Below are positions 11,262 through 13,618 of a stretch of DNA of 37,185 nt, piece by piece. Under the pieces are notes generated by a model. The model searched no databases. It was not told where the DNA came from and worked only from the letters and a program-made list of their open reading frames with translations. Numbering within the stretch: the stretch's first letter is position 1; each line of letters opens with the position of its first letter. A program made the translations under genes and the position numbers. This stretch comes from Candidatus Giovannonibacteria bacterium RIFCSPLOWO2_12_FULL_43_11c (lineage in GTDB: Bacteria; Patescibacteriota; Minisyncoccia; JACPKW01; UBA11713): contig MFIO01000034.1 of assembly GCA_001780775.1 (NCBI GenBank), positions 1 through 37,185 of the forward strand. Reading direction: 5' to 3'.

Positions 11262-11942
11262 TCATTTATTCAAAACTAAATATTTTCCCTCACTGATAAT
11301 CTCAATTTTATTACCGCTAATCTTAAGCGCAGATTTGTCGTCGAGCGCATATACGGGCTGCGTGAATTCCTTGGCAATCTTCTTGAGAAATTCACGTCGG
11401 ACTTTTGGGAAATGAGGAGAGTTTAAATGCGGGCGAAAGTGAAAATCAAAAAATCCAAGGCCGTCTTCTCCTCCGTCGCCACAATAATTTCTTTTTTCAT
11501 AATAAAGCCTCCTAGATTGACTTAGCGCCAAGTTCTTGCTTGCAATCATACTTCCCGCACTGATGCCTGCATATACGCGAGTTCTCAGGAGTTTGGGAAG
11601 AAGTTTCCAAAAGCCGGATTTTTTGAGCCAATAACGAAGATAGAATGTGTTTCCACCTCCAAAAAATAGGACATCTGCGGCCTCAAGCCTTCCCCTCCAA
11701 TTTTCTTTCGGCAACGCCGATATGTCCACTATGTCGATGCTTTTATATCCTTGTTTCAACAAATTATATAAATCTTTGATCAGCCAGATTTTATTTCCTC
11801 CGTCATCATTCGCGATATTTGCGGCCGTTGGTATAAAAGCAATTCGAATATCCTTCGCTTTTTTCCCAACGAGCTCCCGTAGCGCTTTTGCGATTGATTT
11901 ATTTGTAATACCTCCTGATGTAAGCAAAAATTTCATAGCCAT
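11262..11942 (-). CDS. S51 family peptidase E-like protein
   Basis: FLLTSGGITN, DVLFFGGGNTFYLRYWLKKSG, YAGISAGSMIAS. Confidence 0.9.
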   Translation of the reverse strand: MAMKFLLTSGGITNKSIAKALRELVGKKAKDIRIAFIPTAANIANDDGGNKIWLIKDLYNLLKQGYKSIDIVDISALPKENWRGRLEAADVLFFGGGNTFYLRYWLKKSGFWKLLPKLLRTRVYAGISAGSMIASKNLALSQSRRLYYEKRNYCGDGGEDGLGFFDFHFRPHLNSPHFPKVRREFLKKIAKEFTQPVYALDDKSALKISGNKIEIISEGKYLVLNK

Positions 11943-12949
11943 CTTCGCACTCGTGCCTTATATTTTAAATATTCTTCACCGTGCGTTGCTTCCAGATATT
12001 TTTCCTCGCGGCGGATGACGCCATAGTGCAAAGTATAGAATATTATTGGCAGGAAAAATACCGTCCAGAGCGCGTTAAAAGCAGTAGAAAATGCTAGGTA
12101 GATAAGAGTAAAGCTGATATACATTGGGTTCCTCGTGAATGCAAGCGGGCCGTCAGCTACAATTCCGCTCACCGGCTTGAAACGCGGGTCGACTTTGGAG
12201 CGAAGCAATGTTCTAACTGCCCAATACAGAAGCGCTCCACCCGCGACTAATAAGGTTGCGAAAATCGCCATCCGCCAGCGCAAGCTTATATTTAAAAATG
12301 ACGATGGAAATATAATATTAATTCCAACTCCGATCAAAAGTGGGCCAAGGAATATGTAGGGCGGAGGTAGAATTGGAATCGGCCGCTTGATCACCCTAAC
12401 CACCCCAGCCTTTAAAAGCGCTTGATAGTGCGATGGGTTATTGCGCTTGATATAGACGATAACTTTTCCGGCGCCTGGGGCGGAGGTAATGCCATACTCA
12501 CGCGCGAAGTCCATAATTTTTTTCTCGGCTGTGGAGGCATCTTTTTCGTCGTTAACCATTAATTCCGCCTCGAAAGTTTCGAACCCAAAATCCATTTCGT
12601 CGAAATCCAAATGAAATTCCCCTTTTTGATAACTCTCGCGGGTTGTAATGATTTTCGCGAATGGTTTTAGCAGATCCCAACTCGCACCAATTGTTTTCTT
12701 AATTTCCTCCTCATTTTCCAGCTCGCGATATTGGTCGGTTTCTTTTTTTTGAATCGTCTGGCCAAGCGGAACCTTTAGTTCCCATTTTCCATCGCGTCTT
12801 CGAAGCCAATAATCTTTTGTCGTCAGCCTAAAATCATCCGCGTCATAATAAATATCAGTAAAGGTTTTCTTCACTATTAATTTCGCGCTTTCTATCAGGC
12901 GCTCCTTATCTCCTGCCTTCAAATCAAAATTTTTCTCGACTTCGATCAG
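11933..12949 (-). CDS. CYTH (thiamine-triphosphatase-like) domain fused to an ICMT/phospholipid-methyltransferase-family membrane domain
   Basis: Extending upstream of the TTG-start ORF (12922) gives (L)IEVEKNFDLKAGDKERL..., restoring ExExK; then YYDADDFRLTTKDYWLRRRDGKWELKVP; C-terminal TMs and FTRNPMYISF...RREEKYLEATHGEEYLKYKARVRRWL. Start codon CTG 12949, or ATC/ATT nearby. Confidence 0.85.
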   Translation of the reverse strand: MIEVEKNFDLKAGDKERLIESAKLIVKKTFTDIYYDADDFRLTTKDYWLRRRDGKWELKVPLGQTIQKKETDQYRELENEEEIKKTIGASWDLLKPFAKIITTRESYQKGEFHLDFDEMDFGFETFEAELMVNDEKDASTAEKKIMDFAREYGITSAPGAGKVIVYIKRNNPSHYQALLKAGVVRVIKRPIPILPPPYIFLGPLLIGVGINIIFPSSFLNISLRWRMAIFATLLVAGGALLYWAVRTLLRSKVDPRFKPVSGIVADGPLAFTRNPMYISFTLIYLAFSTAFNALWTVFFLPIIFYTLHYGVIRREEKYLEATHGEEYLKYKARVRRWL

Positions 12950-12956
12950 ATGAAAA

Positions 12957-13568
12957 TTAATAGTCTACAAAGCGACCAATTGAAGCCTTTTCCCTAAGAC
13001 TAGTGATGAATACATTGGCCTCCGAACTAAGTTTTTGCTGGCGCAACTGATTTTCTATATTTTTCCGAAAATCTGCCTCCTGTCCCTTCGGAGAAGTAAT
13101 TTTGTTATCCGTAATAAATTTGTCTATGTCAGAACTGGATATTTGGATCTGGTCCGAAAGAATCTTTTGTAATTTTTTTTCTACAGTTATCTGTGTAATT
13201 AAGTCTTCTCTCGTCATATTTCTCATTGCGAGTGCTTGATCCAGCGTCTGCCCTTGAGCTCCTACCTGCCCTTCTATATCCTTAATAACGGCATCAATTT
13301 CTTCCTTCGTAATAGAAATGCCTCTTTTCTCAATTTCGCCGTTGATAAGTTTCTCTGTAATAAGATTATCAAGAACCATTTTTCCAGATTGCTTTTCAAG
13401 CAGACGAATAATTGACATCCTGCTGATAGGCGATCCGTTTACGGTTGCCGCTATAACCAACCCCCTATAACTATAGCCGAGTGCGCCTAGAACCACGATT
13501 GCCAAAACAAGAAGCGACTTAAAATTGATAATTTTCTTGCTAAAAATAAACTTTAAATAATCGTTCAT
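12957..13568 (-). CDS. Membrane-anchored SurA N-terminal-domain protein (no PPIase domain seen)
   Basis: N-terminal TM then VNGSPISRMSIIRLLEKQSGKMVLDNLITEKLINGEIEKRGISITKEEIDAVI; ORF listed to 13604, internal ATG at 13568 likelier. Confidence 0.8.
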   Translation of the reverse strand: MNDYLKFIFSKKIINFKSLLVLAIVVLGALGYSYRGLVIAATVNGSPISRMSIIRLLEKQSGKMVLDNLITEKLINGEIEKRGISITKEEIDAVIKDIEGQVGAQGQTLDQALAMRNMTREDLITQITVEKKLQKILSDQIQISSSDIDKFITDNKITSPKGQEADFRKNIENQLRQQKLSSEANVFITSLREKASIGRFVDY

Positions 13569-13618
13569 AGATATAAGCATACTATTATTTAAGAAGCGAG
13601 GCAACTGCTTGTATCAGC

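Follow-up and report, generated by a model that had tools for sequence, protein, structure and literature searches.

A thiamine triphosphatase-type CYTH domain fused in one reading frame to a PEMT/ICMT-like membrane domain in Candidatus Giovannonibacteria

Does a single reading frame that joins a triphosphate tunnel domain to a methyltransferase-type membrane domain represent a genuine fusion protein, and what might its two halves do together? This question is raised by a gene in the window, the 37,185-nucleotide stretch of DNA analysed here, which comes from a 99% complete genome (G000). Two relatives compared with it, L009 (genome G001) and L010 (genome G004), are Candidatus Giovannonibacteria. 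The frame lies on the minus strand, at the coordinates that an earlier note on this DNA had given correctly, and its ORF reading contains no internal stop. That note had described one uninterrupted ORF combining a CYTH with an ICMT-type domain, and Pfam indeed places both domains within the 338-aa frame (Table 1).

Table 1. Coordinates of the fused gene, its parts and its flanking genes in the window
Feature	Position	Strand	Basis or detail
Whole fused gene	11933..12949	(-)	338 aa; CTG start 12949-12947, stop 11935-11933
Start codon CTG (non-standard)	12947..12949	(-)	ATG in L010 and TTG in L009 at the aligned position
ThTPase-type CYTH (triphosphate tunnel) domain, residues 1-182	12404..12949	(-)	PF01928, PDB, Foldseek, active-site residues
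Junction/linker, residues 183-192	12374..12403	(-)	Window DNA compared with L009 and L010
PEMT/ICMT-type integral membrane domain, residues 193-338	11936..12373	(-)	Motifs GPLAFTRNPMY and REEKYLEATHGEEYLKYKARVRRWL
SurA-N-like gene, upstream	12957..13604	(-)	SurA_N_3 2.8e-9; same order in G001
Peptidase S51 gene, downstream	11262..11942	(-)	Peptidase_S51 8.6e-32; absent from this place in G001

The start codon differs among the three genes at the same position (L009:3001 and L010:3001 in the relatives; codons in Table 1), and ATG, GTG and TTG are all absent at the true N terminus of the fusion gene in the window. A gene caller limited to these three codons therefore places the start at 12922, with loss of the N-terminal ExEx motif. 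In both fused genomes (window and L009), the stop codon of the upstream gene lies 7 bases before the start. The most economical reading would be initiation at this CTG, perhaps with translational coupling to the upstream SurA-N-like gene.

The CYTH half matched the Pfam CYTH family PF01928 over residues 3-156 (E=1.9e-16; 60.9 bits, with a cut-off of 23.2). Its five best PDB matches in a single-sequence search were all mammalian ThTPases (E 7e-18 to 1.5e-19), in agreement with the earlier note, which had called this half strikingly like animal thiamine triphosphatase. A family-profile search of the PDB placed ThTPases at 5.9e-33 and the next group at 9.1e-9, with closeness to ThTPases over other CYTH groups being judged here among PDB entries and members of the phylum. 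Alignment and modelling were done for each domain on its own. In the AlphaFold2 model, most of the CYTH domain exceeded a pLDDT of 90, with values of about 50-75 around residues 181-196 at the junction, and the model and its best PDB fold matches, which were CYTH structures, point to the eight-stranded tunnel fold. The best Foldseek match was mouse ThTPase with ThTP bound (5a64; TM 0.82 by target length, 2.6 A).

In mouse ThTPase numbering, the residues E7, E9, Y39, W53, R55, R57, K65, Y79, E81, R125, D145, E157, E159 and K193 are kept. Animal THTPA proteins (5a64, 5a65, 3tvl and 3bhd) thus share with the window the CYTH fold, the WxRxR motif, the thiazole-pocket residues Y79 and W53, R125, the K65/Y39 pair and the metal-binding Glu residues, including both of the C-terminal ExE (E157 and E159). 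The W/YxRxR motif, a ThTPase signature otherwise present only in plant TTM1/2 (PMC8233210), reads WLRRR in the window, and its W53, R55 and R57 occur in nearly all aligned relatives. By contrast with animal THTPA, the window protein is bacterial, is fused to a membrane domain, shows about 32% identity in the fold alignment, has Ile rather than Met at position 195 and carries ExExN rather than ExExK: its EVEKN retains both Glu residues and has Asn in place of K11. W53 and M195 of ThTPase stack on the thiazole ring (PMC4641920). The Asn is common to one subclade, in which stand-alone relatives are found, and most of the remaining relatives have Lys; given its presence in stand-alone proteins, the fusion did not cause it. 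In the CYTH tree, mouse ThTPase grouped among the W-type proteins and was separated from the other CYTH proteins of Patescibacteria (branch support 92/99), and W53-bearing CYTH proteins were also found in other classes of the phylum. Taken together, the best sequence and fold matches, the thiazole Trp and the retention of nearly all active-site residues indicate that the CYTH half is of the ThTPase type.

The membrane half matched PEMT PF04191 over residues 232-325 (E=4.2e-6; 27.6 bits, with a cut-off of 25), and the same profile scored 39.2 bits in L009 and 42.8 bits in L010. ICMT PF04140 stayed under its cut-off of 24 in the window (20.7 bits) and in L009 (23.0 bits), so that the likeness to ICMT draws solely on profile and fold comparisons. 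The family-profile matches were Arabidopsis Tam46 (1.2e-10) and the ICMTs 4a2n (1.2e-9) and 5v7p (4e-6), which we take to be of Methanosarcina type and insect type, respectively. A separate model of this half from 21 homologs reached a pLDDT of 88.8 and a pTM of 0.83, and its top Foldseek match was ICMT 5v7p (probability 1.00, TM 0.67 by query, with a weak E of 0.026). Like ICMT (4a2n and 5v7p) and PEMT (PF04191), the domain has a helical membrane fold and largely keeps the motifs of the C-terminal catalytic half, GPxxxxRxPxY and EExxL..GEEYxxY; unlike ICMT, it is shorter, with four long helices, reads RNP for the histidine-type RHP motif and scores weakly. These comparisons suggest a half that resembles ICMT, and the earlier proposal of an ICMT- or phospholipid methyltransferase-like membrane domain stands, for PEMT above the Pfam cut-off and for ICMT by profile and fold. 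With four long helices, the C terminus would lie on the same side of the membrane as the CYTH half, presumably the cytosolic one.

Domains of this PEMT/ICMT-like type were also seen N-terminal to a sortase in other Paceibacteria (L094, L096, L099, L100, L104, L105 and L106, from G281, G274, G195, G205, G086, G221 and G107; three of these fusions were checked and matched Sortase PF04203 at about 1e-23), and joined to protein phosphatase 2C in G111 (L101:1231-2973, a stretch ending in masked N; PEMT 5.4e-16, PP2C_2 5.7e-17). The same membrane-domain type is joined to a separate enzyme in these proteins as in the window; however, the membrane domain is N-terminal there and C-terminal here, and the partner is not CYTH. 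Given such fusions to sortase and PP2C, the PEMT/ICMT-like domain may partly serve as a membrane module.

A fused orthologue was found in a second species of the same genus (G001; L009, MFIQ01000026.1). It is 79% identical over the full length, likewise forms one unbroken 338-aa frame and aligns without gaps through the linker. Between the two genes, the CYTH half had a pN of 0.099 and the membrane half one of 0.139, with pS at 0.70 (near saturation) and pN/pS at about 0.17 across the whole frame. Low pN in each half against nearly saturated pS indicates that both the CYTH and the membrane halves are selected as protein and are under purifying selection. In the sister genus (G004; L010), the two halves are separate genes in different frames with an 8-base overlap, 66% and 65% identical to the respective fused halves; the CYTH gene ends with GAACATGCTTAG, within which the start ATG of the second gene sits, and the linker position of the fusion corresponds to this overlap. 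The CYTH tree united the fused pair (100/100) with L010 as its sister (92/97).

Two overlapping genes in the nearest relative outside the genus suggest that the fusion is recent and narrow. The wider distribution was followed in about 380 genomes of the class and 380 of the phylum, and by one pattern scan across GTDB species; no further CYTH-methyltransferase fusion was found in those class and phylum genomes. A CYTH match to the query was present in 23 of 384 class genomes (count from the match table), and the CYTH gene elsewhere in the class is single-domain, as are the closer relatives of the membrane half (about 150-200 aa), which stand alone in G108, G136, G246 and G276 (L044, L045, L091 and L087). 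Within the order (n=7 genomes), two carry the fusion, one the overlapping pair and one CYTH alone (G006), with neither half matched in the remaining three. Since relatives elsewhere have separate genes and no other fusion appeared among the samples, the fusion is a derived, genus-level trait, and a single fusion within the genus from an overlapping gene pair is the simplest history. L012, with a tblastn match reaching residue 241, was rejected as a further fused copy: its CYTH frame stops and the extension crosses stop codons.

Of the 380 phylum genomes, 141 contained CYTH in a PF01928 search. The long CYTH frames inspected among the matches listed had other partners (L072-L077: uridine kinase and others, HTH, coiled coil, membrane anchor). 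L072:1692-4400 (G629) is a 903-aa frame of uridine kinase, CYTH, UPRTase and cytidylate kinase, and L074 has an uncharacterised N-terminal extension. In L075 (G501), HTH precedes CYTH (HTH_17 5.2e-13), L077 (G630) being similar by eye; by domain content, both would be DNA-binding CYTH proteins. L076 (G638) and L118 (G623) end in a conserved coiled-coil-like tail, which resembles the GreA N-terminal domain by eye and has no Pfam match there. L073 (G464) is another membrane-tied CYTH protein: its N terminus is hydrophobic, and a transmembrane stretch lies at its C-terminal end. A ThTPase-type CYTH gene in two frames (L036; G191:C6:20087-20672) may be a frameshifted gene or an assembly error. Known multidomain CYTH proteins likewise join a second domain, as in CYTH-CHAD (e.g. 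YgiF) and kinase-CYTH proteins (e.g. plant TTM1/2), and HD and exopolyphosphatase fusions are also described (PMC8233210). However, none of the CYTH fusion partners in that paper is an integral membrane or methyltransferase domain, unlike in the window.

The gene order obg, SurA-N-like, fusion, (S51) and M24 peptidase is kept in G001, save for the S51 gene, which in the window shares 10 bases with the 3' end of the fusion gene. In G136, where CYTH is missing from this place, the stand-alone membrane gene lies directly downstream of a SurA-N-like gene, as in the window, and also of abcF, and the overlapping pair of G004 sits among other genes. A CYTH-membrane pair occurring in two gene contexts favours a functional link, weakly. 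As for metabolism, a transketolase-type enzyme that depends on ThDP is present in G000, G001 and G004, and neither thiamine pyrophosphokinase (PF04263) nor SAM synthetase (PF02773) was found in these three genomes. ThDP and SAM must thus come from outside, and these organisms presumably take up both or their equivalents, as expected in reduced, host-dependent genomes.

The explanation we prefer, with about even confidence, is a recently evolved two-domain protein in which a membrane-held ThTPase-type CYTH domain and a putative SAM-dependent methyltransferase would serve one process. The cytosolic CYTH domain would hydrolyse, or at least bind, an organic triphosphate whose head group is probably aromatic, as in thiamine triphosphate. 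The C-terminal four-helix ICMT/PEMT-type domain would hold it at the inner membrane face and would most likely itself be a SAM-dependent methyltransferase acting on a lipid or membrane-bound substrate. The protein would have arisen when overlapping, co-translated genes came into one frame, losing the stop and start between them. Against this explanation stand the Asn in place of the ExExK Lys, the RNP in place of RHP, the weak Foldseek E value of the membrane half, the lack of a recognisable SAM synthetase or thiamine pyrophosphokinase in G000, G001 and G004, the confinement of the fusion to one genus and the many relatives that have one half only. Such one-half relatives, together with the unlinked genes of G108, G246 and G276, all outside the family, indicate that neither half needs the other.

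An unlikely reading is that the membrane domain now lacks methyltransferase activity and is mainly an anchor or lipid sensor for the triphosphatase. The fusions to sortase (in several genomes) and PP2C, which mark the domain as a recurring module, would fit this, as would RNP in place of RHP and the failure to find SAM synthetase in G000, G001 and G004. However, the catalytic-half motifs are kept, and pN/pS is low in the membrane half too, where a domain serving only as an anchor should have drifted further.

Ranked next, and likewise unlikely, is a nearly neutral fusion of co-transcribed neighbours, in which both enzymes would continue as before on unrelated substrates without coupling. Restriction to a single genus and the unlinked genes in other genomes with both halves are consistent with this history, and the ancestral overlap would make joining mechanistically easy. 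By contrast, the pair occurs together in two different neighbourhoods within the family, and the fused state has persisted while synonymous sites approached saturation.

A further, improbable hypothesis is that of a bacterial ThTPase, outside animals, physically coupled to a membrane methyltransferase, in which ThTP or a related triphosphate would control methylation or supply its substrate.

A class IV adenylate cyclase like CyaB, the closest name in NCBIfam, instead of a triphosphatase is very improbable: TIGR00318 cyaB does match at 5e-9, but its 36.2 bits fall under the cut-off of 57.95, no HF motif precedes ExEx (the protein begins LIEVE), and the second Glu of ExE (E159), Ala in CyaB enzymes, and the first Arg of WxRxR, both Glu and Arg being triphosphatase/ThTPase features (PMC8233210), are kept, and we rejected a CyaB-type cyclase on these motifs and the score. 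Least credible is an assembly or sequencing error that merged two genes, for which the earlier note had looked to orthologues always split at the junction (about 12400): L010 does have two frames with a stop there, but the separately assembled MFIQ01000026.1 carries the same fused frame without gaps through the linker, and a second fused species with both halves under purifying selection excludes such an error.

Neither a CYTH-methyltransferase fusion nor thiamine triphosphatase in the Candidate Phyla Radiation was found in open-licence PMC full text, and the earlier note's remark that it knew of no described example holds for that literature and for the sampled relatives. Given that coverage (open-licence PMC literature, the class and phylum genome samples and one GTDB scan), the architecture, built from two known families, is provisionally new, as are ThTPase-type CYTH proteins in Patescibacteria. 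Among the sampled relatives, the fusion represents a natural 'Rosetta stone': it brings together a triphosphate enzyme and a methyltransferase-type domain of the membrane, and the sister genus still shows the two as overlapping genes. Coupling of the two activities, if true, would be a new metabolic or signalling link. Finally, a review places CYTH ThTPase activity in metazoans (PMC8615392), whereas stand-alone CYTH proteins of the ThTPase type, their thiazole pocket complete, are spread across Patescibacteria, and these could bear on whether the activity is older or wider than thought.
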